Below are positions 4,460 through 51,048 of a stretch of DNA of 64,000 nt, one piece after another. The first letter of the stretch is position 1; each line of letters begins with the position of its first letter. This DNA is from Tribonema minus. Its lineage: Eukaryota; Sar; Xanthophyceae; Tribonematales; Tribonemataceae. Made by a program: the position numbers and the translations under genes. The notes below the pieces were generated by a model. It had not been told where the DNA came from, did not search any database, and saw only the letters and a program-made list of their open reading frames with translations. The stretch spans positions 868,001-932,000 of the forward strand of contig JAFCMP010000547.1 of assembly GCA_017506865.1 (NCBI GenBank), read 5' to 3'.

Positions 4460-7400
4460 ATGGCGGACGAGCTTTGGCTTTGCGCTGCCTGTGGCAAGTC
4501 CATGTCGGTCCTGGCGAAGACATGTCATGCAACGTGGTGCACGCCCACTCTGAACCGGGACCTGCCCTTGCCACCGGACACACAAGCTGACGAGGACGTT
4601 GATGCGGCGGCAGCACCGCCGTCAGACGATGCATCCGTGGCCCAACCTGCAGACGTCATCGACCTTCAAGACTCACAGCCCGATCCGATATCCCCTCAGC
4701 ATGCCAGCGGGAGACCGGCAGCTGAGCCACCGGCAGCGCACCCGGCAGCACCCTCACCAGCGCCGGCAGCAGTTGCAGCAGCAGCAGCGGCAGCAGCAGC
4801 AGCGGCGGCCAGTGCAGCCGCTGCAGCTGACGCGCCGCTGCTTCCAGTACAGCCGCTGCAGCCACAGCCGCAAGCACTCCTCGGCGGGTGGAGCTGCCCC
4901 AGGTGCACCTTCTACAACGCCGACGGCGGTCATGCAGCGGCGTGCGCGATGTGCGAAGCGCCGCGGCCGCAGCCCCGCAGCAGCAGTGCAGGCGCTGCAG
5001 CTCCGGCTCCACCACCTTCCGCGCCGGTTGCCTTGGAGGAGCAGGCGCGGTTGTTGGCAGCGGCAACGGCTGCGGCAGTGGCGGCGGCGGCGGCGATGGA
5101 GGGGGATGCGCAGCACGGTGGCTGGACGTGCCAGGTGGGCACGCGCGCAAGACTCTTGTGCTCAGCGCTGTGCATTCATGAATTCATGGTGTCCTGCGTT
5201 GAGCTCTGGCGGTGGGTGATCAGCCGCAGTGCGACACTTGAGTTTGGAGGCCAGCAGGCAAGGCTCAAGGGCTAGGATGGTGATTTTGAATGCGGTGAGG
5301 GAGTGCTGCTTTGAATGCTGCTTTATGGCGGCTTCGCTCATCACTCAGCGGTGGGCCACTGGCCTTGCAGTGAGCCTGCCATTGCTCGTCGCTTTGCAGT
5401 GCGCCATCAATCCTGCAGTGGTGCTTTGATCATGCCTGCTGTAGCTAACGCGCAAAGGCGTCATCACTGACGTCACTGCCGCATCAGTGCTGCTGTCTTT
5501 GCCACAGTAGTGCGCACCCGGCAACTGCATTGACGTCAAGCAAGTCAGTTGTGTCTGGCCACCGGCGCTGACGCTGCACATAACATCATGAAGTCGGCCG
5601 CTCTTGCCTGCACAGCCGGTTTCTACAGATGGCATCAACACATGTGCACGGACGACAGCAGAGGTAGCAGACAACGCTGATATTCATTGCCACACCAGGA
5701 GAGCTGGTCGCTCGAGACTGGGGCGAACTGAAGAACGTAGAGCCATCACGCAGTAGGCGGCAACTGTCACAACAACGCATGACTCCTTGCAGCACGTCCG
5801 ATGCGAGTTTTGAAACTGGTCTGCTGCGCCTGATACCCACATACCTACAGCATGAAGCGCCAGGAGCCGCCAACGTCCGACAGACAGCCTCAACGCCTGC
5901 GCCTGCACCTGCCGGCCCTAACCCTAACCCTAACCCTGATAAATCACGTGCCATGCCCCCCAGGTGTGCACGTTCATCAATTGCAACGGCATGCGCTGCC
6001 TGACCCTAACCCCAATCCTAATAGACACGCGCCCCCCCCCCCCAAGGTGCTGCCTGACCCTAATCCTAACCCCAATAAACGCGCGCCGCGCCCCCCACCA
6101 GGTGTGCACGTGCGTCAACCGCAAGCGCGCGCGCTGCCTTTCCCTAACCCTGTCCCTAACCCTAATCAAACACTCGCCGCGCCCCCCCCCCCAGGTGTGC
6201 ACGTTCGTCAACCGCAAGGGCGCGCGCTGCGCCGCGTGCGACGCCTTCCGCGGCGGCGACAGCAGCCCCTTCTCGGGCGTGATGGTGTGCCCCACGTGCA
6301 CGGCCATCAACCACGGCGCCGAGGAGGGGAGCGTGTGCGAGGCGTGCGGGGAGCTGCTGGGGGCGTTGGAGATCACGGGGGGGGCCAGGGGCAGGGGCAC
6401 AGGTGAGGGAGCAGATGGGACAAGGGGGTTGTGGATCTGGTATGTAGTTTTTTTAGAGTTATTTTTTGCTGAGGGCGTGAAAAAGCTCAGATGGTTGATG
6501 TCCAGGTCGCTACCAGAACCTGTGCAATGTGTCGTGTGCGAACTCATTGGTGTTTTGATGCACATTGACTGTAACTTCTGCACGACATTGCCAAATGTAC
6601 TACAGAAAGATGTATTTGTAACAAAACTGTGTTCAGTAGTCAACGGATACTCGAGCAGTTGTGTGTGTGGGTTGCGCGGCAAGCTGATGGAGGTGGTGGG
6701 GCTCACAGAGGCACAGGCACGGGCAGAGGTCTGGGGGCGGAGGGGGGAGGGGGGGGGGGGGGGGTGTCTGGTCATCGCACCAGCATATACGCATGTGGTA
6801 TGGACGCGTTGAAGCGAGCTGGCAGTACAGTCTGCAGATGCGGTTTGTGGCTCGTACCCACACGACATCCTCATGCCCCTTTGCCTCTCACACACCAGGC
6901 GGCGGCGGCAGAAGCAATGGTACCGGCAACGGCGGCGGCGGCGGCGGCGGGCGCAGCGGCGGCGGCGGCGGCAGCGGTGGCGGCGGCAGCAGCGTCGGCG
7001 GCGGCGGGCGCGCGTTAGGGGACCTCGGCGCGCTGGTGGAGCACACTGCGCGCGAGGGCGGCGACGCGAAGGCGCGCACCAACGACGTGATGCGGCTGCT
7101 GCGCGACAGGTGAGGCAGCGCTCCGCAGGGCAGGCAGTGTGCAGTCCTCGGCGCGCCGCCGCCGTCGCCGCCGTGCTCAGCGATGTGCGTCGCGAGGCGC
7201 GGACCGGTGGCGCGGCGCAGCTGCCGCATCGTGACAGGTGGGGGTCTCCGCGGTGCGCAGCGCTCGGTTTGGCGGTGTCAGGCGCCGAGCGTCGAACATG
7301 TGCCACGACGGCGACAGCGGCGACGCGCAGGCGCCAACTGGCGGCACGGTAATGCAGCAGCTGCTGCAGCACTTGAGTGTGACGTCGCTGCACATGGCGC

Positions 7401-10400
7401 TTTTGCCGGGTCAGGCCAGGGCTCGATCAATGAGGGCACGGCGCACGTGCCAGCAGAGCAGTGCGCCTCCTGCGAGTGTCTGGCGTCAGATGCGCGCGCC
7501 GCGTTCGTGAGGAAAAGGGTAAGATGTCCTGGGTGAACAACCCCAGGGGCCGAGCCTTTTTTCTCGTGGACATGTGGTCAGGCCCTGAAAAAAAACTCAC
7601 TTATCTCACACCTGAAGCAGACCCTGAGGGCGCACGTCAGCGGCGTGGCGCATCTCCTTCCGGTGGCGGGTATCGCATGTACGCTGCATACATACATATC
7701 CCGGGGCGCTTGCAGACGTCGCGCCCTCAAACGCGGCTGCGGCACTGCGCGTTGTCCCCACCATATGACTCCCGCATGCGACCGATAGCGCCACCGAGCT
7801 ACCTTGCGCGCGCGGCTGCAGGCGCTGCTCGAGCTGAGCGGTGCGGTAAGTGATATGCGCATACTGTACTGACGCGAGATCGGGCCGGCCACGCTGTTCG
7901 CAACCTGGCCGAGGCGGCGCAACTCACTGACTCGAGGACTCAACGACTCGCTGCGCTTCGCGCCGCGCAGGCAGCTCGCCCCGCGCTGTCAGGAGCGGCC
8001 CGAATACTGCGACTGCGACTCACTGACTTGATGACTCAATGACTCGCCGATGTGCAGGCTGCTCGCTGCGCGCCGCCAGGTGCGGCCCGCGTACGCATTG
8101 GCTGCGACTGCGACTGCGACTGTGACTAGGACTGCGACTCACCGACTCAATGACTCACTGATGCAATGACTCGCCGTAACGCAGGCTGCTCGCCGCGCGC
8201 CGCCAGGAGGGGCCCGCGTACGCGTTCGCGCTGTGCGAGCTGAGCACTGCGCACTACACGCAGTGCAGCGACGCCGGCAGCCGGTGGTTCGCGTGCGGCT
8301 ACCGCAACATACAGATGATGTGCGCAACGCTCATGACAATACCCGCGTACCGGCGCGTCCTGTTTGGCGGCACAGGGGTACGTGGTACACATTTATTTGT
8401 TTCATTCATAGGACATACAGAAACGTGTATCCAGACAAATAGGTAGTACTACTTCTACAAGCATACTTGAAATAGTATAGGTATACTTGAAGTACTTCGT
8501 AGTAGATGATGCGCGCGATGCTCATGACGATACCCGCGTACCAGCACGTCCTGTGTGGCGGCACGGGGGTGCGTGGTATATATTTATTTGTTACATACAC
8601 GAACGTATATCCAGAAGTATGGTATAGGTAGTGCATCATCGCGTATACTGAAGTAGTATAAGTAAACTTGAAGTATGTGAAGGTCATGACCCTCGTGATG
8701 ATACGCGCCTGCCGCCACGCCCTGTTCGGCGGCGCGGGGGTAGGTGGTCAGCACGGTCTATGCTTTTGAATTTGATGATTGGTGTCGCGCTTGCTGCCAA
8801 AATCAACATGCCTCTCGTGACAACTTGAGGGTGTCTCAATGCGCATTGGCGCTTCAGAGGCATGTACGTACACTTTCAAACACATGCATACATGAAGTGA
8901 TCTGTAGAGATTTACATTCATGCACTTCTGTACATGTGACGCTTAACCCTAACCCTAACCCTAACCCTGACGGTTAACTTCCTGGCGCATCCTGTCAGGC
9001 GGCACGCGGTGCGCAACTGATGCAGATGTGATGATGCGCGCGATGCTCGTGACGATACATACACAAATGCCCATGAATATGCCCTCTTTGCTGGGGTGTG
9101 TAGTCGACAGCGCTCAGCACAATGTACGTCACCTATTCTGTTGAAGTGGTAGCCTGGTGCTACACATAAGCACATATATGTATGTGCGGTATCGCTCTCT
9201 TGCCGCTGTTGCTAGGAGAGCGTGTCCAAGTACTACTTCCAAGTATCACCGTTAAACTCGTTTGGCGCAACCTCCGCAACAAGCCGATAGCGGGCAATGC
9301 GCTCGTAGCGACGCCTATAGACTGACTGAGCCTGTTGGCTCAGCCCAGTTTCTCCAGCTGGCACTACTGCCAGCACCATGGGCAGTTCAGCACTTGGCAC
9401 TTGAAGTACGGTAGTACTCTGAGCGCTGCCACGCTCATGACGTGATCACCGCAGGTGGTGCCAGCGCTCGCACTGCTGCCAGCACGTGTAGTTCAACACT
9501 AGCACTTGACGTAAATAGTGTCATATGAGCGCTGCCTTCCACACTCTGTGGGTGGGTGCCACAGTAACACTTGAAGTGCAGCAGTGTCCTGAGCGCTGCC
9601 ATCGCCGTGCTCGCCTTACCACGCAGGTGGTGTCAGGGGCCGCGCTGCTGCAGGTGTGCACACCGCAGCAAAAGCACTTGAAGTTTGATAGTGTCATACG
9701 AGCGCTGCCATCGCCCCTCGCCTCACCGCAGGTGGTGCCGGGGGTCGCGCTGCTGCAGGCTTGGACCGAGCGCGCCTGGGAGGCGGGCTTCGATACGGCT
9801 GGTCAGGAGCAGGTGAGCAGCTCTTTTATGGTAATATTGAAGTTGGTGATAAGCGGCCCACGTGACACGACCGCGCCTATTGGACTGCTGGTCTTGAGTG
9901 TCACTGCAACTCAATTTTTTCAGCGAAGCTTGAAGTTAATTCAAAAGCACGGCGGGTCAGGAGCAGGCGAGCAGCGCTTCCCTGAATCACTTGAAGTTAT
10001 TGGTAAGCGGCTCATTGGTGTTCTTCAGTGTCACTTCAACAAGTGGGCTTCGACACAGTCGGTCAGGAGCAGGTGCGCAGCGCTTTTTGGTTAGTTTTGA
10101 ACTTCATTCAGAAGCAGTCCGGTAGGCTGGTAGTCCTTCGCAACGAGTGGCACTTTGACAAATGGGCTCCCAGTGCTGAAACGGCAAACCTTGAAGTTTT
10201 CTCAACACGGTCAAGTAGGCAGCCTGTAGGCTGGTAGTCGTTTGTGATGAATGGCACTTCAACAAGTGGGCTTCGACAAACGTGCAGGCGTGCAGTTGAG
10301 CAGCGCTGCACGAGCAGCACTTCAAGTCCTTGGAGAGCCGTTTCGCTCTCTGGGCTGCTGGGTATGTTCGTGCTGATCGGAACTTCAACAAGTCATAGCT

Positions 10401-12789
10401 TCGTGCGGACTGGCAGGGTCTGGAGAGGAGCACTTTCAGGTCGTACTTCATTTGTGCGTCGCTTGACTCATCTTCATACTTGAACACGTCAAGTTATTTT
10501 TCCGATGCATCGCTCGCGCACCGGAGGCGCAGACGCCCGTTCTGTTGCAGAGCGCGCCACGTGGCACACTGAGAGCGCGCACTTACGCGAGGCGACGCGC
10601 ATCCCTTACTTCAAGTAGACTCAAAATAAGTATACTGTACAGTACTGCGTTTGTGAGTTGGGCGCCGCGTGCTCTCCGTTGCACGCCCGCGCGCCCAGAC
10701 CGCCTTGCTGCAGGGGCGCACGTGCAAGTCTCTTTGCTACTTCGACGCATGCAGAATCCCACGCGCACTCCGTTTCAAGTTTGGTGCACACCCAAAAAGC
10801 GACGCGCGCGCGCTGCGTGTGCGCAGGTCGGCCCGCTGCAGGGCGCGTCCAAGTCTCTTTGCTACTTTGGCGTGCTTCAAAGCACGTGAAATCCCACGCA
10901 AACTCCGTTTCAAGTGTGGCACTTGTCCAACAAGCAACGCGCGCGCGCGCTGCGTGCCCAAATGTCAATATAAAGGTGATGAGCATTCCGTAAAAGTTGA
11001 AGGTTGTACATTAGACGAGCGGCGAGCGCTCGGAGTAAGGCGGCACTGATCTACCCATATCGTTGATCGTTTTATCCAGGAAGTCAAACAGCTCACGGGC
11101 TAACGAGCACGTATAGTCCTTTCTGAGCGTACCAATGATGAAGGCCCACTCCTCTAGTCCATCGCCGCCTGCGTATCGATGACAGTCTGGCGCATGTGCG
11201 CCGCGCGCGTGCAGGTGGGCCCGCTGCAGGGCACGTCCAAGTGGATTGGCGCCACGGAGTGCGCGGCGCTGCTGCGCTACTTTGGCGTGCGCGCGGAAGT
11301 CGTGGACTTTGCGCCGCGCGACGCCGCGGCGATCGGCGATGCGACCGGCGCCGGCCGCCGCCGCCGCCGCCGCGGCAATGACAACGGCGGCGGCGGCGGC
11401 AGCAGCGGCGGCGGCGGCAACGGCGGCCGGCAGCGCTCCATGCTGGAGTTCACGTTGCAGTCGTCGGGTGAGGCACGAGTTGAAGTGTGTGTGTCAACTT
11501 GAAGTATACTTCTATTGTGCTCTTGCATTGTTCAGTGCAGAGTGCGCGCTGGCGTGTTGAATATTTGTCATACATTCAAATCGCGTTTCTATAAGTCACA
11601 TGGCGTGGGCGCGGGTGTTGCGCCTGTCTGTGTGTTTTGCGTGTGTGCATCATGTGTGCACGGACGAGAGAGCTCGTTGCGCTCTGCCTTGAAGCACACT
11701 ATTCATGCATCATTGTGGGTGTGTGCGTGGGTGTGTACATGGGTGTGTGTGCCTGCGCACGACGCGTGTGTGCGTGCAGTGTCTGTGTATGCACGTAGTC
11801 GCCTGGGCTGCCGTGCCAACGGCTCGGCCCCCCCCTCACTTTGTACACTTGAAGTTAATCACATCATGCCCACTGCGCAGTAGTTCCTGCAGGCCACTGA
11901 CTCGCTGCCACACCCACTCGCGCGACGCAGATGCGGATGCGGCAGCGGACGCAGCGGCAGAGGCGGTGGTGGAGGCGGCGGCGGAAGGCAACGGCGCTCC
12001 GCAGCAGCAGCCGCAGCAGCAGCAGCAGTGCCACCCAACCGCCCCCCCCTGCGACATCAGCCCCATGCTGGACTACATCTGGAGCTACTTCCACAGCCCG
12101 TGGGGGGACCAGCCCGACCCCCCCCCCTCCCCCGGCGCAGCAGGCAAGCGGGGGGGGGGGAGGTCTCTCGTAGTGGTCGGTTGCGCGCGCGCACGGCTGT
12201 GTTGCTGTCCGTCCGTACACCACCGCTGAGTGTTTTGCAAGTACTCAGGGCACTCAAGCGGCAGTGCGGCTGTCCGTTGGTACACCGCCGCTGAGTGTTT
12301 TGCAAGTGCTGACACGGCGTCAACGCGCTCGCTGTTCGACGTATGTGTGCATGTCTGTATGTATGTGCGCCCATCGACGATGCCAAGGCGCACACCGGCG
12401 TCGCTCCCGTTGCGCTCTGTTCCCGCTGCAGGCCAGCAGCGCACGGCGACCCACTGGCGCGCTTTCACGCCCCGTTACCTACGCACTTCCCTTCCGCCCG
12501 CAAGTCAGGCGGGCTCCGACCTGATTTGAACTTATGCATTGAAGTTGTTGCGGTTCGCCGCCGCTCACCGCGGACGCTCGTCGCTCACGCGCAGGCGAAG
12601 GGGGCGGGCACGCACGCAAGCGCCCCCGCGCGCCCCCCGAGTGGCCCCCCGACTTCCGCCCCCCCCTCTACTTCCAGCACGACGGCCACTCGCGCACCAT
12701 CGTCGGCGTAGAGCGAAGGCCGCAAGCCGCCGGCTGGCGCGGCGGCGGCGGCGGCGGCAGTGGCGGCAGGCGGGGACGTGGACGGGGAC

Positions 12790-12824
<35 letters not shown>

Positions 12825-12873
12825 AGTTGCCGCGGCGGCGACGGCGGCGGCGGTCGCGGCGGCGGGCGGCGGC

Positions 12874-12907
<34 letters not shown>

Positions 12908-25440: not shown

Positions 25441-25445
25441 AGCGC

Positions 25446-32309: not shown

Positions 32310-32340
<31 letters not shown>

Positions 32341-36900: not shown

Positions 36901-39900
36901 GAGCACTGCTGCGCGCGCACGAACAGCTACCGCAGCAAGATCACGCCGCACCATGAGGCGCCGCTCAGGTGCGTGCAGCGCAGCAGCGCTCAGTCAGGAC
37001 ACCACGAGTCGTAACGGCTGCACCTGCGTGACACGCTGGCTCGGCGTAGTGTGGGCGGCATTTACAGGGCATCGTTGTACAGGAGCTGCTGATGAAGTGG
37101 TCAAGATGACGGCGAATGGCAGCGCGCCTGTGTACGGCTACCGCAGCAAGGCCACGGCGCACTACAAGGCGCCGATGATGTGTACCGGGCAGTGCTCAGT
37201 TGAAGTGCTTGTTGAGGTCAGCATCACCGGCAGGGCTAGGGTTGGGACTAGCGTCACATTATCGACATTGGAGCTTCAGTGCGTTCACTCGTGTGCATTC
37301 ACGCATGGCATCTCAAGGCTTACATGTCTTGAATTGCTGCTTGAAGTGCATGCGGTGACTCTCCTATGCACCTTGCGTGCTGTCTGCGGTTCTCAGCATC
37401 GCAGGAAGCCGCAGTGTCAAGTGCATCGGCCTCACACGTGAAGTTCTTTCTGGACTGCATGCAGTGACTCTCACGCGCCTTGTGTGCCATCTTCAATTCG
37501 CGGTGCCAGGAGAGGTTGGCTCCACGAGGCTCACACATGTTGAAGTTTGGGGTGGGGCGCATGCAGACACTCACGCGCCATGCTGTCACATGTTGATGTT
37601 GCTTCTAGTGCATGCAGTGACTCTCATGTGGAGCCAATCTCAAAAGATCGTAGAGCCCCAGGTGACAAGGTGTGGTCAGCCGCCAGTTTCTTCAACCAAT
37701 AACCGTGGTCGCCGCTGCTGCAATGGCCTTTTTTCTTCTAATGCAAGCAGTGACTCTCACGCGTCATACACACCATCTTGATCTGCGGCGCTGCAGGAAA
37801 GCGCCGGGCGACGTGCGGTCCATCGGCTTTCAGCGCCTGCCATTCCCGACCCTGTTCCACGACATTGACATAGAGACGGTGGATACGCAGAAGATCCTGG
37901 ACGTGCCGCAGTGCCCCATTGCGGTGGCTCCGATCAACGAAGGCGAGTAGTACTTCTACATGAGGTATGATTCACGTTATATGATTCGTACCCGCAGTGC
38001 CCCGTTGCAGTGGCTTTGATCAATGAAGGCGAGTACATGAGTTATGACTCACGTAATATGATTCGTACTCGCAGTGTCCCATCGCGGTGGCTCCGATCAA
38101 CGAAGGCGAGTACATGAGTTATGACTCACGCAACATGATGGGTATGTATTCGCAGCACCCTATTGCGGTGGCTTTGATCAATGAAGGCAAGTAGTACGCC
38201 AGTATGACTGACGTTGCCTGACTCATACGACGTGAGGAGAGCTATCTTCATTGCACGCCTACTGCCGATACAAAGCAACTCAAGGCTTACGCATTTGCGG
38301 TGTCTCCAATCAACGAAGGCAAGTAGTGCGTGTCGGTGCTCCGAGGCACCGATGCCTGCTTGTGCTGCGAGCCGGCGTTGCCACCTAGGGTGAGGGTTGG
38401 TGTGGTTATAGCTCCTGCTGCATGAGAGCGGGGATCTCACTGGAGGTGTGCTCCATCATGATGATGTCGTCGCATTTGGCTGATTCTGCCGTGTAGCTGA
38501 TGGCGACGATGCGCTAGGGGCAAGGTTAGGGTTAGAGTTAGGGTTAGACAGTGACGTCAATGATGTTCAAACATCGTGACGTCGCCCATTGTTGTGCCTG
38601 CCTACTGTACGCGCGCGCGCAGCGCTGCCGGCGGCGCGCGAGGCGGCGCGCTTGCGCTCTCGCAGGCGTGCCTGTGCCGCCGGCGCTGCCCCGTTGCGCA
38701 CAGCGTTACCGCGCACGCGCAGCCTCCTGAAACATCTTCAAGCATTTCGACGCCGCTCTCCTGTTGTGCCTGCCTGCCTACCTGCTGCATGCGCGCGCGC
38801 GCAGCGCTGCTGCCGTCGCCGACAGCGTCAGCGCTCGCGCACAGTCTCTCGATGACCATCCTGACGCCCACCCTCTTCTTGTGCATGCCTACCGTACGCG
38901 CGCGCACGGCGCTACCGGCGGCGCACTCCGAAGCGCTTGAACGCAGCCTTCAAGTGCAAGCGCGGCGGCCTCTTTTCGTGATGGAGGAGCTTGGCGCTCT
39001 CGCAGGCGCGCTGGTGCCGCTATCGCTGCCATTGCGCACAGCGTCACTGCTCGCGCCTAGCCTCTTTGTCACCATCCCGACACCGCCCTGTTATCAACAA
39101 AAACATATGTGCCTACCTACTGTATATGCGCGCGCGCAGCGCTGCCGGCGGCTGTATGTGCGCGCCCAGCGCTGCCGGCGCTGCTGCCGTTGCCAACAGC
39201 GTCAGCGCTCGCGCATAGTCTCTCAATTACCATCCTGACGCCGCCGGCGCGTAGCTCCCAACGCCGCCTGTAGACTCTTTAAACACCCTCAAACATCCTG
39301 ACGCCGCCCTGTTGTTACGCCTGTTGTGCATGCCTACTGTACGCGCGCGGCGCGCTCCGAAGCACTTGCACTCAGCCTTACAAGCACAGCGGCACTGTCT
39401 CCTTGCCGCTCTCGCAGGCGCACCTGTGCCGCCGGCGCTGCCATTGCGCACAGCGCCACCGCCCGCGCGCAGCCTCTTCAAACTCTTCAAACATCCTGAC
39501 GCCGCCCTATTATACTAGAGCTCAACGATCTTTTGATTCGTTTTTCATTACGCCTGCGTACTGTACATTCGTGCGCGCAGCGCTGCCGGCGGCGCGCGAG
39601 GCGGCACGCGCGCGCGTGCGCGACGCGGCGGCGGCGGCGTTCGCGGCCGGCAGGGCGCGCTTCAAGTCCAAGGGTGCGACGCTCCTGCTGCGCCACGTCA
39701 AGGAGGGTGTGGTCTATGACAATAAGGAGCTCGTCACGGAGGAGGTGTCCGGCCTGACGTTCAAGTTTACAGGTGCAGTTGAGCTGATTCTCACTCTTGG
39801 CTAAGGTTGAGCGTTGTCAGAGGAGGGCGTCGTCTTCAACAAACAGGCGCTGTCACGGAGGAGGTGTCCTACCTGACGTTCAAGTTCACAGGTACAGTCG

Positions 39901-42900
39901 AAGTTTGACGCTTCTTCCAACTGCTTTTAGATTAGTGATAAGTTTCAAGTTCAATCGGCTGGGTTGAGACAAGTGAAGGAGGGCGTTGTTGATGATAACA
40001 AGGCGCTCGTCACGGAGGAGGTGTCCGGGCTGACGTTCAAGTTCACAGGTGCAGTTGAAGTTGAAGTTGTTTGGTTGAGGTTGGCATTTTTGTAAGCCGC
40101 GTCAAGGAGGACGTCGTCTGCGACAATAAGGTGCTCGTCACGGAGGCGGTGTCCGGCCTGACATTCAAGTTCACAGGTGAAGTTGAAGCTGATTTGATCA
40201 TCGGGTTGACCATTTCTTTTTCCTAAAAAATGACAAACTAAAGTTTGTTAGGCTGAGCGTTTTCAGATCGGGCGTCGTTTTCGGCACCAGCTCTTCATGC
40301 AGGACGGCACCAGCTTGTCATGGAGGACGTGTGCAGCCTCACATGGAAGTTCACATGCGCAGTGCAAGCACCTCCTGATGAACAACTGTTGCATTATTCA
40401 GTCGTGACCTACTATCTTTGTTCATGCGCTACGTAGACGTGTTTGCCCTTCAAGGTGACTGAGCAATGCTGCCTCAAACCGCTTGTGCGCGCAGCCGGCG
40501 AGTTCTTTCAGAACAACCCCTAAGGTCACCACTTTGTATTTGGCGCAAGCACGGCCAGAAGAACAGCTGCTGCACTGTTGTATCGTGACCTACCATGTTT
40601 GTTCGTGCCTTATATAATCGTTCCCGCCCTTCGACGTGACTGAGCGCTGCAGCCTCGCACCGCTTGCGCGCACAGCCGGCGAGTTGTTCCAGAACAGTTC
40701 CTACGTGCTGCCATCGAAGCTGTACACGGAAGGTCTTCGCCATGTGTGTGTGGCGCAAGCACAGCCTGAAGAGCAGCTATTGCATTGTTGTATCATGATC
40801 TACCATATGTGATCATGCCTTGTACAGACATGTCCGCCTGTAAGGTGACTGAGCAATGCAGCCTCGCATTGCTTGCGCGCGCAGCCGGCGAGTTCTTCCA
40901 GAACAATCCCTACGTGCTGCCGTCGATGGTGGAGCACGTGCTGGCGCGCGCGCGCGGCGACGGCGACGTCAAGTTCCTCATCGACGCCTACTGTAAGTGC
41001 TTATGCAACTTTCATTCATGAATGATTCATTCGCTGTTCACACGAGTAGCCCATGTCCGAAGCGCGATCGACGCCTGCTGCAAGTTGCTGATGAAACTGA
41101 ATCATGTACAGTTAGGCTTGTGCCAATCCGTACATTTGGATGTCAAATGTACTGTATATACACGTATATACGGTATATACATGTATTTAACCGTACATTC
41201 CGTATGTTGACAAACAGAAAAAGGGCCCATAGACACCTTAACTTCAACTTGAAGTTGCAGTTGGGTAATCTGTCATGCTATTAAAAGTGTGTAAGGTGCT
41301 GTAAGGCAGTCATTGCATGTAGAGTTGCTGCCGCTAAGCTCACAAAACACTGACCGCGCACTGCAGCACTTAAAGTGCCGCGCCCTCAAGGATATTGAGC
41401 ATGATCTCCTCATCCGGCGCCACAGCAGAGACGCCGTCGTTACCCGCAATGTACACCAGCTTCCCTCCCCGCTCTAGGGCCAGCCTGCTGCGGCACTTGG
41501 GATACATCCTGCCCCACAGTGACCAGTTGCGTTCACTTGAGCAAGCAGTGACTTGCCAGCTGTACACTCGCTGCAGCTTGGCAGTTCCTGCTCTTAAGAT
41601 GGTCACTTGCTGTGCGGCTGGCGTTGGAGCCGGTAAGCCTGGCCGAGCACCGCTTGCACACCAGCTTCGCAGCTAGCACGTCACCAGTGTCATCGAGGAG
41701 CACCTCGAATGACGACCACCAAGAGGCTCTGCCGCCCTTCTTCTGCTTGACTAGCTGCTCATACAGCTGCCTGGCTTGCCGGGCTGCATCCTCAGCCTCG
41801 GCTGCCGTCAGAGAGGGTTTGTGTGGCTCAAAAAAGCATAAATACGGTGTATACGGCCCGCCACGTCATATCTACTGTATATACTACGTATATACGTATT
41901 TGCCGTATATATACGGTCTACGTATGGCACAACCCTATGTACAGTCAGTACGAGTAGTTATGGCGCGCGCGCGGCGATGGCGACGTGAAGTTTCTCATCG
42001 ACGCCTACTGTAAGTTTCTGATCCAAAATTCATTCATGAAATGAATGATTTCACAGTTTACACGAGTTGCCCATGCCGTGGCCATCTTAGCGGGATCAAT
42101 GTCCCAACAGCTCACAGCTCGCTGGTATGCAAACTGCCAATACCTTAGGAGTACTACCGTGTATGCCTTCCCCGATGCATCGTTTACATAAAGGCAAGGT
42201 AGATGCGGTGGCCCAGAGGCCAAGCATCACAAATGCTGGTATCCTGGTGCAGTTCATACAGGAAAGCCTCCGCAATGTGTAGTGTTCCCGGTGTCATTGC
42301 AGCAGCTTGTGCGCAAGCAGTCATTTGACCGTTCAAAACTCGATGTGTATGGAGGTCGGAATCTCATCACACTTTGGAAGTCATGTAAAGTCTGCTTCTG
42401 TTGACCGACCGCCTTACGCGTCAACCCGACCGCAGGCGGCGGCGGGCTCTTTGCGCCGCGCGCGTCGCGCCACTTTGCGGCGTGCGCCGACGTTGAGCAA
42501 TGCTTTGAGTACAGTATCACTCTTTTGAGTTGTGGAGTTCTAAGCAGGGTGCTCGAAACCTCTGATCTTGATGCACCACCTCCCCTGTGCTGAGCGCTGC
42601 TGACTGCAGGCGGCGGCGGGCTGTTTGCGCTGTGCGCGTCGCGCCACTTCGACGCGTGCGCCGGCGTTGAGGTCTCCCCCGCCGCCGTGGAGTGCGCCAC
42701 GCGCAACGCTCAGCTCAACGGCATTGAGAACTGCACGTTCCTGCAGGGCACGGCGAGCGCCATCTTCGACAGCGCTCAGCAGCTGTTTGACGCGTTGAGC
42801 ACTGCCGTCATTGTCGACCCGCCGCGCAAGGGCTGCGACGAGGTGTTTTTGGCGCAGCTCTTTGCGTTCGCGCCGCGCCGCGTCGTCTACGTGTCGTGCG

Positions 42901-44722
42901 ACCCCGCCACGCAGGTGCGATTTGAAGTTTGTTTTTTTTTTCGCATTTGCAAGGGGGTTATCTCCAGTGTGAGTCGTTGGAGCCTAGGTTCGTGTCCGCC
43001 GCTGTGTCTATTTTGAAATTGTGTATAGACAGCTGTTCGCGTTTGCGCCGCGCCGCGTCGTCTACGTGTCGTGCGACCCCGCCGCGCAGGTGCGGCTTGA
43101 GGTTTTCGCCTTTGGGAAGGGGGGTACTGCAAGTATGCATCGCTTGAGGACGGTCGCGCCTCAGCAAAGCTTGAACATCTGGCCGTTGTGTACATTCAAA
43201 GTTCTTCAGACAGCTATTCGCATGAGCGCCGCTCCGCGTCGTGTACGTGTCGTGCGACCCCGCCACGCAGGTGAGGTCTAGAGCTTCAGCATTGCAAGGG
43301 GGGTACTTCACATACCCTAAGAAGTATGAATCATCGGAGACTGGTCGTGCCTCAGCCAAGTCAGTGCATCTGCCATCGTGCTCAAGTATAATCAAAGTAC
43401 CCCTGGCGGTGCAGCTGTTAGCGTTGGCGCCGCATCACGTCGTCTACGTGTCGTGCAATCCCGTCACGCACGTGAAGTTTGAAGTGAAGTTGGAGGTTTG
43501 TAACGCGATAGGGAACCGGCAGGCAGGCAGAGTGTCGCACAAGACTCAGGGGTGGACACGTGGCAATGATGTACTGTCGTTGCGCAGGTATGGGAGGGGG
43601 GAATGGTGGGCGCCGCTGACAGAACGCATGTGACATTTGAAGCGTTTGCAGTGCGCAGAGGGTCTTACTTCAGGTATGAGTCACTCGGGGACGGTGATGG
43701 CTCAGCGAAGCTGTACATGTGGCCGTTGTGTTGCAGTCTTCAAGACCAGGCAGCCGTTCGTGTGTGCGCCACATCGCGATGTGTCATTGGACCCAGCTGC
43801 GCGGGTGAAGAGTCCGCAGCGCAGCGAGATTAACATGCTTTGAATGACCCTCTGCCATGCTACGCACCTGCAATCGTGTCCTGCTTGGCTGATGGGCGCA
43901 ATTGTGTAACGAAGTAGAATCACCGTAAACTACAACAATTTCAGCTGTCGCATTTGCGCCGCGTGAGGGTTCGAAAAACCCTAACCCCAACCACGTGTTT
44001 CGCAACCCCGCCACGCATGCGAGGCAGCTTCCAGGGCACAGGCAACATCGCAGTATCTGACGGCATCAGTGCGTGGCACAGGCGCGGGACTGTCGCTGCT
44101 CCATATTGTAGCAACACCTCGCAGCCCCCCCCCCCCCCCCCCCCCCCTTGCCGCTTTGCTGCCCGTCACTCATCATGTCAGTGCTCAACTCCCGTGTGCA
44201 GGCGCGCGGCTCCAAGGGCATTATATTACATTATTGTCGCCGTGCCGTGTTTTTAAAAACCACCTGGCGAGCCACCTCATGCACAACCTCCCCCACCCTT
44301 GTTGGCCGGCACTGATCATGTCAGCGCTCAACTCGCGTGCGCCGCGCGGCGCCGGCCCGCACACAGAACCCCCTTGTTGACCATCGATCGCTGGTGCTGT
44401 TGACATCAGTGCTAGACTCCTGTGTGTGCAGCGCAGGCGCAGCGTTGTCGCTGCGCCATATACGTATACTTTGAAGTACGTTACCTCGGTTTAACGCCTT
44501 GCAAGCCCCCCCCCCCACCCACCCACCCACCCACCCACTTACCTGTCACTAATCATGTCAGCGCTCAACTTGTGTACGCAGGCGCGCGACGCCAAGGACA
44601 TTGTCGCCGCGGGCTACGAGATCACGGACGTCACGCCCTTCGACCTCTTCCCGCAGACACGTCATATCGAAAATGTGATCACATTCGAGAGGCGCAGCGG
44701 TGGCGACGCTGAGCCATTATAG
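33975..44722 (+). CDS. TrmA/RlmD-type uracil-C5 RNA methyltransferase, eight exons
   Basis: Exons 33975-34397, 35468-35552, 36481-36661, 37797-37942, 39581-39772, 40885-40992, 42610-42914 and 44582-44722 join in frame to 526 residues. A hydrophobic then Ser/Arg-rich N-terminus suggests organelle targeting. A TRAM domain (GDGVARVTVDG, VVPGELVKAKV) is followed by QCALFGMCGGCQYQHM with cysteines 163, 169 and 172, and C269 in PQCPIA, the four [4Fe-4S] ligands of RlmD-like enzymes. Then come INEALP, GEFFQNNPY, the SAM site YCGGGLFAL, VIVDPPRKG (448-453), YVSCDPATQ with the nucleophile C475, and FPQTRHIENV. It should make 5-methyluridine in rRNA or tRNA, perhaps in the plastid or mitochondrion. The intron at 37943 starts with GC (GAAG|GCGAGT), which yields the family-typical PINEALP. 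Confidence 0.9.
35880..36030 (+). mobile_element. SINE-like dispersed element, copy 1
   Basis: About 140 bases beginning ACGAATCAAAAGATCGTAGA, with GGTCAGCCGC, CGTGGTCGCCG and CAGTAGTC further on. Related copies lie at 37629-37727 and 47233-47385 on the same strand and a 5' fragment at 39516-39550 on the other. There is no coding capacity. No clear pol III boxes or target duplications were seen. Confidence 0.65.
36084..36112 (+). repeat. GGGCT minisatellite
   Basis: Five consecutive GGGCT units in intron 2 of the methyltransferase gene. Confidence 0.9.
36711..37190 (+). repeat. Three copies of the methyltransferase exon 3 donor edge
   Basis: The end of exon 3 (ACGGCTACCGCAGCAAGAT ... GAGGCGCCGCTCAG|GT) recurs at about 36711-36780, 36924-36975 and 37117-37185. 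The first two keep the CTCAGGTGCGTGCAG donor region; the third is more diverged. The first copy is near identical to the true exon and could be spliced as an alternative. Confidence 0.85.
37629..37727 (+). mobile_element. SINE-like dispersed element, copy 2
   Basis: Starts AATCTCAAAAGATCGTAGA and shares GGTCAGCCGC and CCGTGGTCGCCG with the copy at 35880. It is 3'-truncated. Confidence 0.6.
37980..38330 (+). repeat. Four copies of the methyltransferase exon 4 donor edge with its GC donor
   Basis: The exon 4 end (CAGTGCCCCATTGCGGTGGC, then GATCAACGAAG|GCGAGT) recurs at about 37996-38037, 38072-38112, 38152-38190 and 38288-38325. All copies keep GAAGGC(G/A)AGTA, so the unusual GC donor was duplicated with the exon edge. 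GAGTTATGACTCACG-like intron sequence follows the first two. Confidence 0.85.
38525..38547 (+). repeat. Interstitial telomere-type repeat
   Basis: About four GTTAGG(G/-)-type units, one imperfect, in intron 4 of the methyltransferase gene. Confidence 0.8.
38600..39580 (+). repeat. Array of copies of the methyltransferase exon 5 acceptor edge
   Basis: The exon 5 start (GCGCGCAG|CGCTGCCGGCGG) recurs at about 38612, 38798, 38897, 39131, 39158 and, in weaker form, 39340, before the true copy at 39573-39592. The intervals share GCCTAC(C)TGTACGCGCG, CGCAGGCG(C/T)(G/A)C and CATCCTGACGCC. Several copies retain the acceptor CGCGCAG. The last interval contains the inverted SINE-like fragment. Confidence 0.82.
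39516..39550 (-). mobile_element. SINE-like element fragment, inverted
   Basis: Reads on the minus strand as AAACGAATCAAAAGATCG followed by a near match to the element's next bases. Only the 5' end is present; it lies 30 bases before a true exon acceptor. Confidence 0.6.
39815..40370 (+). repeat. Copies of the methyltransferase exon 5 donor edge
   Basis: The exon 5 end (GAGGAGGTGTCCGGCCTGAC, then TTCAAGTT(T/C)ACAG|GT) recurs at about 39855-39895, 40010-40055, 40140-40180 and, more diverged, 40318-40360. Upstream parts (CGTCAAGGAGG, CAATAAGG) are included in some copies. Three keep the donor ACAGGT. Confidence 0.85.
40440..40705 (+). repeat. Two copies of the methyltransferase exon 6 acceptor edge
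   Basis: GACTGAGC(A/G)(A/C)TGCAGCCTC..GCGCGCAG|CCGGCGAGTT recurs at about 40459-40520 and 40637-40710 before the true exon at 40885. The preceding intron (TGTT..CGTG(C/A)CTTA, CGTGAC(C)TACCAT) is repeated as well. Confidence 0.82.
41950..42505 (+). repeat. Copies of exon 6 donor edge and exon 7 acceptor edge (methyltransferase)
   Basis: At 41962-42020 the exon 6 end recurs (GCGGCGATGGCGACGTGAAG, then GACGCCTACT|GTAAGT). A weaker copy lies at about 41068-41090. At 42432-42500 the exon 7 start (GCAG|GCGGCGGCGGGCT) recurs with the following GCGTCGCGCCACTT and GCGTGCGCCG. Confidence 0.82.
43025..43815 (+). repeat. Copies of the methyltransferase exon 7 donor edge
   Basis: The exon 7 end (GCCGCGTCGTCTACGTGTCG, then TGCGACCCCGCCACGCAG|GT) recurs at about 43028-43092, 43220-43272, 43410-43475 and 43755-43808. 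The coding sense of the catalytic YVSCDP motif is kept in the first two copies. Each is followed by a similar intron strip. Confidence 0.85.
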
Positions 44723-45092: not shown

Positions 45093-48000
45093 ATGAGGTT
45101 AGCAGCAGCAGCGCTGCTGACACTGTGCCTGGCGTCAAGGCACGTCCAGGCGTTCGCACCATCGCCATGCCAGCAGCGACACTTGATCAGCTCGCCAGCT
45201 CGAGCAGCTTCACCTTATGCAAGGCCGGCAAGCATCGCCGCGCAGCCGCTGGAGCAGGCGTGCAGACGAGGGGAGTGCAGCAGGCTCTGGAACTCGAAGC
45301 TAAACATGCCCAGAGATGAAACACCCGATCCGGATCGCTACAAAGTTGCAGTCCGCAACTCGTTGATCAGCATCGGTGAGAGCGCAGTGCATGTTTGGTC
45401 TCTGGCTGCTGCTTTGCAGATTTCTTCCACCCCCAGAGATAAAACGAACTATTGTGTTTGGCCATGGCGATGCTCACTGTTCCCTATGCCAGTGGCTGAC
45501 AGTGCCTGCGTATGGCGATCTGAGTTTATTCACTACACGACTCTCTGGGGTGGGCTAGGTACAAAAGTTGCCCACCTATGACTACTGCTACAACAAATCT
45601 AGATTTATCTGCCTCACAGGCAGCTTTCGTCACCTGCATCCTGGCGCCTTCGTGTACCCACGTCGATACTTCATCAGAGCAGTACAAAACATGAACACTG
45701 TGTTTGAGCAGTACCATCGACCCTGCCAAGTGACTGTTTGCACGCGCCAGTCTGGCTCTTGCTAGTGAAGAACACTGCTTGTAGACTATGCATTGGCTGC
45801 CAACTAGCTTGTGGCATGCCTTGCCATGGACACAACACCCTTTTATTCAGCGGGTGCTGGACCTGCAATCAGATTGTCATCAAATGTATATTACTCTTCG
45901 AGAAGAGATATGCAAGCTCATGTACGTATAACAGATTGGTTGGCTGCTTGCCATAAATGACCTGGCAACAATGACCTCAGAGCTTTTGCGCGCAAGTTGA
46001 AGTATCCACTGGCGCTCAGGTCTGCTCGTGCGCTGATCTCCACGCACATCTGGCGCCTTTAGTGCATCCAGTTGTCGCAGAAAGTTCTATTGAAAATCTG
46101 CCAGAAAGCAGTAGTACTAGTGTGTGAGAGGCTGCTGAGCACTGGTCACTCTACTGCAGCGAGCAAACGCGGTCATGCACTGTGCCACATTGCTCAGGCG
46201 GCAGACTGCGCGCAGCACAGCGACTGTTCTCGGATGCCTGTACGCCTCGCTGCATCAGCGCATGGTTGCTCAGTATATCACCTTGGAGACGGTCATTCAT
46301 TCGCTTTATTCCGAAGGTGCGCATGTATGCCTTGCTGCAACAGCACATGGTTGCTCAGTACATCACCTTCTTCAGAAGTTGCGCTTGTAACCATCCTGCA
46401 CGGCATCGCCTTGAAGAAGGTCATACTCATTGCTTTAACAGTTACGCATGTAACCGACGTGTTCCTCGCGCGCCGCAGCCGCGGCGGCCGCATTTGGCGC
46501 TGGCATCAGCGTCGTGCAGGGGAGCGAGGCGGCGGTGGGCTACTTTGCGGGCTACGTGGTGGAGCAGAGCCTGAGCGTTGACAACCTCTTCGTCTTCCTG
46601 CTGCTCTTTGAGTACTTCAACGTGCCCATCAGCTACCAGCAGCGCGTGCTGCGGTGGGGCATCGTCGGTGAGTCGCGAGTCTGAGTCTGTAGCTTTTGCC
46701 GTGATGGAATATGTCCATGGCATGTGTGAACTGGTACTCCTGGTGTGCTCGCGTCCGAGCGACGCTTTTGGTCACGTATTCAATTTATGTTGGGTGGTGT
46801 AGGCTGGGAGGCGTAAGAACTTCAATCTGAGCCCGGGAGTGTACTTTACTGTCATCCAATGATGACAACGTCACAGTGACCACAGGTTGAGGTGGCCGTA
46901 GATTACGTTTTGATCTGTTAACTTCACCAATATTACACAGTGATGCACTTGAAGTTTGGCATGTCGTGGATGACTCCAATTGCGTTGCTGCAGCCCTGTA
47001 GATACCTCGCCTATACCTTTCCTGGTCGCTGGTTTTCATTGCGCTGGTGGAGGCTGCGCTGGATACCTTCCAGCATGTGGTGTACAATATTGAAGTGCTC
47101 AATCAGGGGTCAGTCGCCCTTGTGGCGTTGCTGTTGACATTCTGCGTAATGCGGGGCGTGTTCATCCTGCGGGGTAACCCTAACCCTAACCCTAAGGGGA
47201 GGCCACGCTGAACACATTTTCCCAGCCATCAGTTCAATGAAACGAATCAAAAGATTGTAGAGCTTTAGGTGACAAGGGATGGTCAGCCGCAAGGAAGTGC
47301 CTTGCACCAACAGCCTTGGTCGCTGCTACTGCAGTCATTGGCTACAAGGCAAACAGTGCCATCATATCCACAGTAGTCAATAATTCAATGTTGAAGTTGC
47401 ACAATCAGCGGAACGTCGCCCCCGCATCCTTGCTGTTGACGCTCCTTCAATGCTGTTGTTGGTGACGCTCCTGCATGCGCGGTGATACTGCGGAGGGTAT
47501 TCATCGCACTCGGGGAGGCGGCGCGGAGAGCTTACCAGCTGATATATTATTCAAGTAGCACAATCAGCGGAGAGTCACCCCCGCATCATTGTTGATGCTC
47601 CTCCATCGATGCTGACGCTCTTGCAGGCGCGGTGATACTGCGGGGGTGTTCATCGCGCTGGGGGAGGCGGCGCTGGACAAACTCCCAGCTCTTTGTTCAC
47701 TATTGAAGTAACACAATCAGCGGAGAGTCACCCTGACATTGTCGCTGTTGATGCTCCTGCAGGCGCGGTGATACTGCGGGGGGTGTTTATCGCGCTGGGG
47801 GAGGCGGCGCTGGAGAGCTTCCAGCCGGTGCTGCTGGGGTTTGCAGCCATCCTCATGGTGTCAGCGTACAAGCTGTTCACGGAGGAGGAGGGGGGGGAGG
47901 CGGACCTGACGGACAACCAGGTGGTGCAGTTTAGCAGCAAGATCTTAAAGGCGACGGACCAGTACGACGGTGACAAGTTCTTCACGATGGTGAGTGGCGT

Positions 48001-51000
48001 GTGATGGCGTTGTGTGCACGCGCGAAGCGATGGCGCTGACTATATTGCGCTGTGATTAACGTGTATAAGCAGCCAGGTGGTGCAGTTCAGCAGCAAACTG
48101 CTGAAGGTGACGGACCAGTATGACGGTGACAAGTTCTTAAAGATGGTGAGTGACACGCGACGGCGTTGTGTGACACGCGACGGCGTTGTGTGAAGGCGCG
48201 TAGCGATGGTGCCGACTGTCAATATTGCGCTGTGCTTAGCCTGTATACGCAGCCAGGCGGTGCAGTTCAGCAGCAGACTGCTTAAGGCGACGGACTGGTT
48301 AGATGGGGACAAGTTCTTCGATGGTGAGTGGCGTGTGTGAAGGCGTGTACGCTGTGTAGCGATGGCGCTGACTATTACAATTGCGCTTGTGCTCAAGCTG
48401 TGTAAGCAAGCTCTGCATGGTACCGTACCGTGTTGGGTGCCACCTTGGTGATCAGAGCTGTGCAAGATTCTGATGCACGCGTGCGTGTCGTTGCTGGGGC
48501 GACGGGTATGCGCTGGGACAATCGAAAGGGGAGGTCAGCAGCGCATGCTGTGACACTTCTTCGCTGTAGCGCATTATGTCTGTGCATCAAGCAAACTCAG
48601 TTCAGACAAGTTCTTCACGGTGGTGAGTAAGGGTGAGACGGGATGCCGTCATGTAGCGCCGGGGGTGGCTCTCCACTGGTGTGCGGGGTGCTACTCTCGC
48701 AACTGGTGTCCGAAGGGTGCGTATACGCCTGGGCCCATGTGCATGGACGTCTGTGCGGCAATTTACTACTGGCGATGGAGCTTTGAGCGCCGGAATGCGG
48801 TGTTGCGTAGGAAGAGGTATTGGTTTATGAAAGCTTCGGTGTGGCTGCGCAAATGACGTCCATGACAGGCGCCACATTGTTGGCGCTGTTGAGCGCTGCT
48901 CACGATGAGCTGAGCACTGTCGCACGTGCGCTTTCCGACACTGGCTGCTGGCTGTCGATCTGCAGTCCCTCAGCAGCTACAAACTGCACACACCTAGGCT
49001 AGGGTAAGGGTCAGGGTTACGTGTGCGGCGCTCAGCCGTGGATACATTAAAGTACAACGGACATTCACCATATGGGTTTTTCCGCGCTCTGAGCAAGAAT
49101 CAAAGAAACGCACAACGGTATACATGTAGGTTCTGGTACGCAGCTGGACGTTCACGATCTGGGCTTTCTTTGCGCCCTAAAGCGATAATGATGAAAGATA
49201 CAGTGGTACTTGAGTGGGCGCACGAGCCTACGGTGTTAGCGCATGCATAGGGCGCACGGGGTGAGGGTTGAAGTTGGGGCTTAGGGTTAGGGTTAGGGCT
49301 GTCGGCCAGCCGCGCTTTGCGGGGCAGTCAGTGGGAGGCGCACCGCGCCACTGCGTGCACCGACGTCCGATCCCACTGGTATTATGATGGTCAGTACACG
49401 CCGTGCCGCTGCGTCCTGGCCAGACCAACCAACTTCAAGCGGCGGCAGCGAGAGAGGGTGCAGAGCAAGTGCTCGCCGCACGGTCGGCTGCTCATTGAGT
49501 ATGTGTCAGGGGCAGACACGCATTGAGCTCAGTAGTGACATCTTTGTCGCCGCGCACCTGCCCTCGCCAACTTCAGACCCGCGCTTTTTCCGCTCTGCTC
49601 GCAGCCGTCAGTCTCGACACCGCAACTCAAAATCTTGGTGAATGTGTGCATGCGCCAGGTGTGGACGGTACGCGGCGCGCGACGCCGCTGCTGCTGGCCC
49701 TGGTCTGCGCGACCTTCAAATTCCATACTTCAATAAGTATATCCTTTGGCTGGGTGTACTACAGACGCTTTAGTGCCTTGATTCCTCGAAGCTTCATATA
49801 CACAAGACACTACCCAGAAACCGGTTCGCCAACCGCCTTTGACAACATGCTGCTTGCCTTTTGGCAGGTGGACGGCGTGCGGCGCGTGATGCCGCTGCTT
49901 CTCGTCCTGCGTTGAGCTCAGCGACCTCGCTTCGCACCTGCCGTCACCAAATTAACCGATACAGTCTCGATTGTAACTCAGTGCCTTCCTGCGCACCAAC
50001 AGGTGGACGGCGTGCGGCGCGCGACGCCGCTGCTGCTTGTCCTGGTCTGCGTCGTTTCCTCACATTCCTGAATACTTATCATCTCCAACCTATATCTATC
50101 CCGCTGCTGTGTAGATGCTCTGGTGCCTTGATCCCTCGGGGAAAACAGGACGCGATGCACTGACCGACTGCAACAACATGCTGCTCTCCCTTGCGCAGGT
50201 GGACGGCGTGCGGCGCGCGACGCCGCTGCTGCTGGTCCTCGTCTGCGTCGAGCTCAGCGACCTCGTCTTTGTATCTGCCCTCACCAAATATCAGATGCAA
50301 TCTCGACATTAGCCAAACATCTCAGTGCATTCCTGTGCACTAACAGGTGGACGGCGTGCGGCGCGCGGCGCCGCTGCTGCTTGTCCTCGTCTGCGTCGTC
50401 CTTCAATTTACACACATCATCATGCTGTGTGTACCTAATGCTTAAAAACTTCGGTTTCTGCGTAGTGTTTCTAATGCGCCAACCGACTGCAACAACTCCC
50501 TTCGCCAGGTGGACGGCGTGCGGCGCGCGACACCGCTGCTGCTTGTCTTGGTCTGCGTCGAGCTCAGCGACCTCGTCTTCGCACCTGCCCCCTCACTAAA
50601 TATCAGATGCAATCTCGACTTGAGCTAAAAATCTCAGTGCATTCCTGCGCACTCACAGGTGGACGGCGTGCGGCGCGCGACGCCGCTGCTGCTTGTCCTC
50701 GTCTGCGTCGAGCTCAGCGACCTCGTCTTCGCGGTGGACTCCATCCCCGCGGTCTTCGGCTGCACGCGCGATCCCTTCCTCGTCTACACGTCCAACATCT
50801 TTGCGATTGTCAACCTGCGGTCTCTGTACACGGTCCTGTCCAACGCGGTTGGGGATCTTGAGTACCTGCGGCCGGCGGTGGCGGGGGTCCTCGCGTTCGT
50901 GGGCGCGAAGCTCGCAGCGGAGTACTTTGGCTACGAAGTCGACACGCTGCTAAGCTTGGGGGTGATCTCGACGCTGCTGGGGGGGGGAGTGGCGCTCAGC

Positions 51001-51048
51001 CTGCTCAAGGGGGACGAGGAGGGGGAGGAGGGGAAGCAGGAGGCGTAG
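45093..51048 (+). CDS. Plastid TerC-family membrane protein, four exons
   Basis: Exons 45093-45375, 46479-46667, 47763-47989 and 50659-51048 join in frame to 362 residues. A signal peptide (LAAAALLTLCLASRHVQAFA) ends at the AFAP motif for import into secondary plastids and is followed by a Ser/Arg-rich transit region. The TerC domain follows: VVEQSLSVDNLFVFLLLFEY, RVLRWGIVG, RGVFIALGEAAL, SAYKLFTEE, and LVCVELSDLVFAVDSIPAVF, DPFLVYTSNIFAIVNLRSLY, GAKLAAEYFG, ending in an acidic Glu/Lys tail. The ...DN and ELSDLVFAVDS segments carry the acidic residues thought to bind metal ions. In Arabidopsis, plastid TerC is needed for thylakoid membrane protein insertion; a metal-transport role is also proposed for the family. 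The long third intron is filled with decoy exon edges. Confidence 0.91.
47175..47195 (+). repeat. Interstitial telomere-type repeat
   Basis: Three TAACCC units follow directly on a remnant of the exon 3 edge in intron 2 of the TerC gene. Confidence 0.85.
47233..47385 (+). mobile_element. SINE-like dispersed element, copy 3
   Basis: Begins AAACGAATCAAAAGATTGTA and is the longest match to the copy at 35880, sharing GGTCAGCCGCA, the CCTTGGTCGC block and the 3' end CCACAGTAGTC. It lies in intron 2 of the TerC gene. Confidence 0.68.
48069..48632 (+). repeat. Copies of the TerC exon 3 donor edge
   Basis: The exon 3 end (CCAGGTGGTGCAGTTTAGCA ... GACAAGTTCTTCACGATG|GTGAGT) recurs at about 48069-48152 and 48250-48332 and as a short copy at 48594-48630. 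All keep ATGGTGAGT- or GTGGTGAGT-like donors. The intron word GCGCTGACTAT(A/T) follows the copies. Confidence 0.85.
49281..49299 (+). repeat. Interstitial telomere-type repeat
   Basis: Three TTAGGG units in intron 3 of the TerC gene, upstream of the exon 4 array. Confidence 0.85.
49655..50658 (+). repeat. Six decoy copies of the TerC exon 4 acceptor edge
   Basis: CAGGTGGACGGCGTGCGGCG plus 40-80 further exon bases recurs at about 49657, 49867, 50003, 50200, 50347 and 50508, before the true exon at 50659. Each copy keeps the CAG acceptor except the first, which reads CAGGTGTGGACGGT. Two acceptor contexts alternate: a GACAAC/GCAACAAC-type interval ending in TTGGCAG, TGCGCAG or TCGCCAG (49867, 50200, 50508), and an ATCTCAGTGCATTCCTG(C/T)-type interval ending in AACAG or CACAG (50003, 50347, 50659). 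The repeat is therefore a dimer of about 310-345 bases. Confidence 0.92.

Follow-up and report, generated by a model that had tools for sequence, protein, structure and literature searches.

Diverged tandem copies of exon edges in introns of Tribonema minus

The TerC Locus and Its Neighborhood Carry Arrays of Exon-Edge Copies

The window, which is the whole stretch of DNA analyzed here, comprises 64,000 nucleotides at C544:868001-932000 of the Tribonema minus genome (158.18 Mb in 554 contigs). It harbors a TerC gene on the plus strand, whose identity was confirmed by Pfam, and a methyltransferase gene, which reached 23.6 bits with PF05958 against a cut-off of 23, whereby the Pfam check of the window genes covered part of the plus strand. 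Both are among the five genes named in a first-pass annotation, which further described same-strand copies of exon edges beside the true exon, at donors as well as at acceptors. Such copies, referred to as decoys in the following, are indeed present at the places named. The features of the TerC gene are:

46544-46667, plus strand: TerC exon (Pfam part), with donor 46668 at its end (Pfam, sequence)
47391-47825, plus strand: acceptor decoys and true start (47763) of the second TerC exon
47763-47989, plus strand: second TerC exon, donor at 47990
47914-48408, plus strand: true end of the second TerC exon and two donor decoys
49653-50732, plus strand: six acceptor decoys and true start (50659) of the last TerC exon (self-comparison, by eye)
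50659-51048, plus strand: last TerC exon (Pfam)

The two donor decoys of the second exon lie at about 48070-48146 and 48250-48325, and both are full copies that extend from exon sequence through the same GTGAG into the beginning of the intron. An AG precedes the last exon, whose first base is 50659, and six upstream sites, starting by eye at about 49659, 49868, 50003, 50199, 50347, and 50509, repeat the AG together with the first ~50-77 exon bases. These six decoys are of two alternating types, with an exon strip of about 55 or about 77 bases and different sequence thereafter. The presence of two exon endpoints at one junction suggests at least two founding events, the products of which were then amplified as a dimer. 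Short interstitial telomere-like tracts (TAACCC/TTAGGG) were seen inside the TerC introns at about 47175-47197 and 49280-49300, as well as at 8944-8968.

Outside of Pfam-matched genes, coding segments were predicted with a model of coding potential, for which kinesin and TerC exons had served as the training set. The further arrays of the window that were assigned to coding segments are:

2606-2875, minus strand: repeat pair overlapping coding segment 2529-2618 (weak coding score), outside the section 4460-51048
5916-6230, plus strand: acceptor-side array whose 3'-terminal, true copy lies in coding segment 6200-6399
7919-8229, plus strand: acceptor-side array, coding segment 8181-8372
8313-9058, plus strand: donor-side array, coding segment 8181-8372
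10707-11242, plus strand: acceptor-side array, coding segment 11159-11467
25553-25976, minus strand: acceptor-side array, coding segment 25449-25617
27204-29269, minus strand: 24-pair repeat field upstream of coding segment 27100-27212, overlapping it by only 9 bases
29620-30507, minus strand: acceptor-side array, coding segment 29520-29667
35897-37722, plus strand: 8-pair repeat field, copies flanking both sides of coding segment 36468-36764
37906-38327, plus strand: donor-side array, coding segment 37806-37947
38567-39593, plus strand: acceptor-side array, coding segment 39569-39765
39692-40194, plus strand: donor-side array, coding segment 39569-39765
40364-42075, plus strand: arrays on both edges of coding segment 40875-40991
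42428-42671, plus strand: acceptor-side copy, methyltransferase (PF05958) coding segment 42594-42917
42851-43731, plus strand: donor-side array, methyltransferase (PF05958) coding segment 42594-42917
44113-44602, plus strand: acceptor-side array, coding segment 44577-44708

Seven of the 25 window arrays overlap no coding segment by 12 bases, and one of these, 27204-29269, abuts an exon. The arrays at 9397-10307, 35503-35835, and 59177-59734 have no predicted coding edge and may represent missed exons or truly internal duplications. In the window and the random loci (see below) taken together, nine arrays were found in the 56.9 kb that are more than 1 kb away from coding segments and 50 in the other 127 kb. 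The measured exon strip in a copy (median 57, IQR 44-68, range 25-159, n = 55 exon sides) comes close to the roughly 30-85 bases that had been proposed.

The Arrays Are Real and Recur in Independent Kinesin Genes

Self-comparison of the window yielded 113 near same-strand repeat pairs (<3 kb apart), one separated inverted pair, and two self-palindromes. The latter are a near-perfect palindrome of 122 bases just downstream of the TerC gene (51462-51583, 96.7% self-complementary) and a second one at 17227-17641 (80% self-complementary). Other loci were alike one-sided, with three separated inverted pairs in total and palindromes in five loci; for the 14 kinesin loci the numbers were one and zero, respectively. 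This same-strand excess excludes a chance origin of the exon-edge arrays. Independently of the self-comparison, TRF reported diverged arrays in the window with periods of 54, 77, 89, 150, 180, and 209. Many array copies are 10-30% diverged, and for these assembly error is an unlikely source.

Kinesin genes were chosen as an independent sample. The Pfam profile PF00225 gave 132 kinesin exon matches genome-wide; 14 gene stretches were fetched and their exons taken from the Pfam matches. Antenna proteins gave 92 matches in the genome, some of which have identical scores on the contig pairs C296/C490 and C70/C489, perhaps due to uncollapsed haplotypes. The kinesin and antenna matches taken together are those of a photosynthetic eukaryote. 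One exon, L032, matches antenna chains, with 9vfj on top (long chains, no single stretch over the cut), followed by ACP and CAC chains, which we take to be cryptophyte chains. Kinesin splice sites were set by profile continuity and site consensus, apart from L021 intron 3 and L030 intron 1, which were set by hand, whereby the hand-set acceptor of L021 intron 3 reads CG and is one base off. The splice choice in true exons was deduced from the protein frame at the DNA level. Introns with a splice score <9 or a profile gap >12 residues were dropped. In the first kinesin set, 27 of 31 called introns were used; left out were, among others, two L024 introns, L026 intron 1 (which carries a likely acceptor decoy), and the L029 array. 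The second set provided seven introns, after one low-scoring intron (L035, with a large array at the acceptor) had been dropped and four profile gaps skipped. Loci L016, L017, L018, and L020 were left out of the codon-position, edge-anchoring, and spacing analyses.

The 27 introns of the first set contained 35 decoys, spread over 12 introns. No decoys were found in the same 27 introns when these were reverse-complemented, and the introns of other kinesin loci gave 0.19 matches in total, scaled to one foreign intron per template, a figure that is slightly too low as its divisor takes in all 26 other introns. Kinesin and TerC introns together (34 and 2, respectively) carried 50 decoys in 18 of 36 introns at the chosen threshold, and 26 of their junctions (12 donors and 14 acceptors) were decoy-bearing. 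At kinesin locus L024, which has four exons, near repeats are absent. Thus, the arrays described in the first-pass annotation are real, but its statement that they occupy most introns of every confidently annotated gene is too strong outside the window.

The Copies Are Arranged Head-to-Tail

Among 213 repeat pairs spaced <400 bp, the alignment covers at least 0.8 of the spacing in 55 and the full spacing or more in 34. The spacing of the 55 head-to-tail pairs has a median of 136 (range 60-354), and no preference for frame-keeping unit lengths was found among them (remainders 0, 1, and 2 of the spacing modulo 3 in 19, 16, and 20 pairs). Exon starts have their copies upstream of the true exon, whereas exon ends have theirs downstream of it. 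Accordingly, 81 of 86 decoys were anchored at the expected exon edge and five within the exon, while none was anchored at the wrong end. Copies on the correct side together with alignments that extend past the full period indicate head-to-tail duplication, since a scattered re-insertion would not give such patterns. The copies are direct, head-to-tail, and located beside their source, as is the case for local tandem duplication arrays. Together with the multi-copy and dimeric arrays and the two exon endpoints in TerC, this supports the earlier proposal that recurrent local duplication lengthens introns. An age gradient with distance from the true edge was not observed (in 20 cases, divergence was lower for the nearest copy 11 times and higher 9 times), and the true edge itself is thus no more than a candidate starting point of the duplication.

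Arrays Span Exon-Intron Junctions More Often Than Expected

Of the 25 arrays in the window, 16 include one and only one edge of a coding segment compared to 4.5 in circular shifts, where 0 of 2000 shifts reached 16; with a stricter coding score there were 13 of 25 arrays compared to 4.1 expected (p = 0.001). Twelve random 10-kb loci gave 13 of 34 arrays with one coding edge compared to 6.1 (p = 0.004), or 9 of 34 compared to 4.5 with the stricter score (p = 0.02). The stricter score thus weakens the shift test in both samples. Three random loci hold repeat fields of ~1.7-2.9 kb (L007 2761-5636, L010 1238-2987, and L012 7106-10000), which exceed in size all arrays that were listed for the ten kinesin loci fetched first.

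Junction-spanning arrays make up 18 of the 24 arrays in the first kinesin set, whereas 5.2 would be expected for the present intron lengths and 8.3 for array-stripped introns. For the second set, the forecast noted before its sequence was viewed was a junction share near 0.75 with an exon strip of 40-60 bp, and five of its six arrays span a junction. In total, 23 junction-spanning and 7 internal arrays were found in 34 kinesin introns, a share of 75-77%, whereby 13 of the 23 junction arrays come from two loci, L021 and L023. The 18 junction arrays of the first set comprise 50 repeat pairs, its six internal arrays comprise six. Donors and acceptors are about equally represented in the kinesin junction arrays (11 and 12, respectively), which suggests a cause at the DNA level rather than at a step of the spliceosome.

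The exon strip in the 23 kinesin junction arrays has a median of 56 bp and reaches at least 90 bp in only two of them. It measures 20-75 bp in 20 of the 23, an interval that was picked after the data had been seen, and it does not correlate with unit length (rho 0.14). Random breakpoints, when simulated, yielded strip medians of 83-98 with 44-55% of the strips being at least 90 bp long, which differs from the observed distribution (KS p 3e-5 and 5e-5). The short strip would fit either breaks near the junction or a removal of longer exon copies, perhaps as these were taken for exons. It could also be that small indels in old copies, which are absent from the simulation, shortened some of the alignments.

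A Model for the Origin of the Arrays

Taken as a full explanation, we propose, with a probability of roughly 60%, that tandem duplications arise around exon edges, are favored at the junctions, and leave copies that decay as intron sequence. Local head-to-tail duplications with a unit of mostly about 90-240 bp would arise around exon edges, whereby the exon-side breakpoint would in most cases be 20-75 bp away from the junction, as judged statistically from the kinesin sample. With a unit that spans a donor, splicing would keep using the first copy, and with one that spans an acceptor, it would keep using the last. Edge-crossing duplications would be tolerated because one true site still works and the extra copy turns into intron. 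The dead copy would then drift, while selection on the protein holds the true exon edge, and further duplication within the array would add copies and make the intron longer. The underlying cause might be that staggered breaks or nicks occur more often close to exon edges and are repaired in an error-prone manner, and subsequent array growth may be helped by the selected exon edge, which retains homology to the decoys.

Survivorship Probably Accounts for Only Part of the Junction Bias

It might be that there is no junction preference at all and that duplications land anywhere, with exonic ones being harmful and junction-crossing and intronic ones surviving. Part of the junction bias is indeed survivorship, given the harm done by duplications within exons, and if introns grew from short ones, most of the surviving units had to cross a junction. 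These possibilities were simulated for a few parameter sets with selection, decay, and the same detection as used for the data. Uniform growth from introns of 200 bp gave junction shares of 0.80-0.86; from 150 and 300 bp the shares were 0.61 (repeat coverage 0.50) and 0.56, respectively. Furthermore, a uniform founder junction share of 0.23-0.26 rose to 0.38-0.44 among detected arrays, as the true exon edge is conserved and junction copies therefore stay detectable for longer. However, the high-share runs had coverages of 0.66-0.81 where measured and introns near 550 bp, compared to 0.25 and 921 bp in the data, and all uniform-growth runs ended at mean introns of 531-657 bp. At steady state and with array densities of 1.05-1.21 per kb (0.97 in the data), uniform duplication produced a share of only 0.36-0.38, which does not fit the kinesin sample, for which reason this candidate was rejected. 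The exon strip is also too short and too uniform for random breakpoints. We thus regard duplication without any junction preference as rather unlikely.

In contrast to these runs, a six-fold junction rate gave a share of 0.75, a mean intron of 922 bp, and a coverage of 0.31. This run yielded 1.5 pairs per junction array and 1.1 per internal array, so that the observed junction amplification is higher. A three-fold rate resulted in a share of 0.58 and a ten-fold rate in 0.86, which makes the figure of six a loose one. Within this model, the junction excess beyond survivorship and detection would be about six-fold, and survivorship probably accounts for part of the junction bias but not for all of it. 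Thus, the earlier claim of duplication at exon-intron junctions holds insofar as the junction preference exceeds the random expectation in the kinesins and, more weakly, at segments from the coding model, whereas a "junction-directed" mechanism is a hypothesis. That the process is physically focused on junctions, with breaks or template switches that repeatedly fall no more than about 75 bp from the exon edge and at a more variable distance in the intron, with donors equal to acceptors, and as a main route of intron growth genome-wide, is a tentative suggestion.

Decoys Decay Like Unconstrained DNA

If a neutral copy lies beside a selected exon, mismatches of t, t, and nearly 2t are expected at the three codon positions and 2t in the intron part. 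A comparison of true exons and decoys (86 pairs from 40 exons, most of them predicted by the coding model) yielded 8.1%, 8.9%, and 17.0% at codon positions 1, 2, and 3, and 19.9% in the intron part, with a ratio of intron to positions 1 and 2 of 2.33 (1.98-2.82). Thus, the mismatches look like those of a dead copy that drifts as unconstrained DNA. The splice dinucleotide is intact in 33 of 42 decoys and in 1603 of 1991 exon control dinucleotides (p = 0.70). Decoy splice sites are neither kept nor purged, and selection that destroys them was not found in these 42 decoys compared to the exon control.

These data bear on the idea that decoys are selected elements, such as splicing buffers or alternative or mutually exclusive exons. 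The best hint against strict neutrality is the excess at the third position between decoys: mismatches at codon positions 1, 2, and 3 were 0.115, 0.115, and 0.202 (47 pairs, 19 exons), giving a ratio of 1.74 (CI 1.25-2.17). In addition, some TerC decoys score as coding (50162-50271 and 50484-50581). However, copying of the decoys at various times from an exon that undergoes only silent changes would likewise produce a third-position excess, frame-breaking changes were seen by eye in two TerC decoys, and the splice dinucleotides decay like their surroundings. Since the true-decoy data match neutral decay, decoys as conserved elements were rejected, and a selected role appears improbable. No clear sign of a function was found, as both the codon positions and the splice-site decay look neutral. 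For some pairs, the exon strips are far more alike than half of the intron divergence allows, which suggests exchange between copies; at L023 exon 3881-4081, for instance, the exon strip shows 1 mismatch in 70 positions compared to 51 in 210 for the intron.

Comparison to Known Systems and Implications

In some algae, introners or introner-like elements are a source of intron sequence, whereby one family is spread across many genes. Decoys differ from introners in that they match almost only their own gene: among the kinesin introns compared, the 35 own-intron decoys stand against the 0.19 foreign matches mentioned above, so that similar copies in many unrelated genes were not observed. To our knowledge, intron lengthening that is free of transposons is poorly documented. 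Small tandem duplications reportedly result from the repair of staggered breaks or nearby nicks (PMC8355091, which cites Schiml 2016 and Vaughn and Bennetzen 2014).

According to the same study, break or nick repair makes direct tandem duplications without mobile elements, the cases studied being <100 bp and from induced breaks (PMC8355091). The arrays described here are likewise direct, tandem, and without mobile elements, and the accessible part of that work makes no link to splice junctions (PMC8355091). Tandem exon duplication and mutually exclusive exons are also related, as exon-sequence copies lie in the neighboring intron, sometimes with adjacent intron, and have been tied to alternative splicing, in several cases backed by conservation or RNA evidence (PMC9013439, PMC6071210). 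In T. minus, by contrast, only one edge is copied and then decays; instead of whole-exon copies with both splice sites, we found a median of 57 bases from one edge, located on the expected edge in 81 of 86 cases.

Intron gain by tandem duplication is likewise local, occurs in genes, and is spliced such that a usable message is kept; in the potato RdRp gene, a local tandem duplication copied an upstream intron-exon structure (PMC4974935; review PMC3443670). Here, in contrast, the process seems to lengthen introns that were already present, duplicates one junction again and again, leaves copies that look unused, and recurs in many genes. That the arrays are remnants of the origin of these introns through tandem duplication of an AGGT-carrying exon segment (Rogers model) is very improbable: both scenarios have tandem duplication in genes in common and the last TerC exon is preceded by CAG and opens with GT, but intron interiors did not consist of a duplicated exon carrying AGGT, the alignment of 42 of 50 decoys continues for at least 5-6 bases beyond the splice site into the intron copy, and 22 of 35 decoys of the first kinesin set extend at least 24 bases into the intron.

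Local duplication is a known kind of event, and its build-up at splice junctions has no description among the matches listed from the open-licence literature, in whose titles and abstract openings no exon-edge copy arrays inside introns were mentioned. Many introns of T. minus hold a record of their own lengthening, as a copy starts identical to the selected exon and decays like neutral DNA, and relative rates are thus readable within one genome from the decay of decoys compared to exons. If the junction focus applies genome-wide, DNA breakage or replication trouble would be tied to exon boundaries, and these genes would provide a natural test of how the spliceosome chooses among several near-identical sites.
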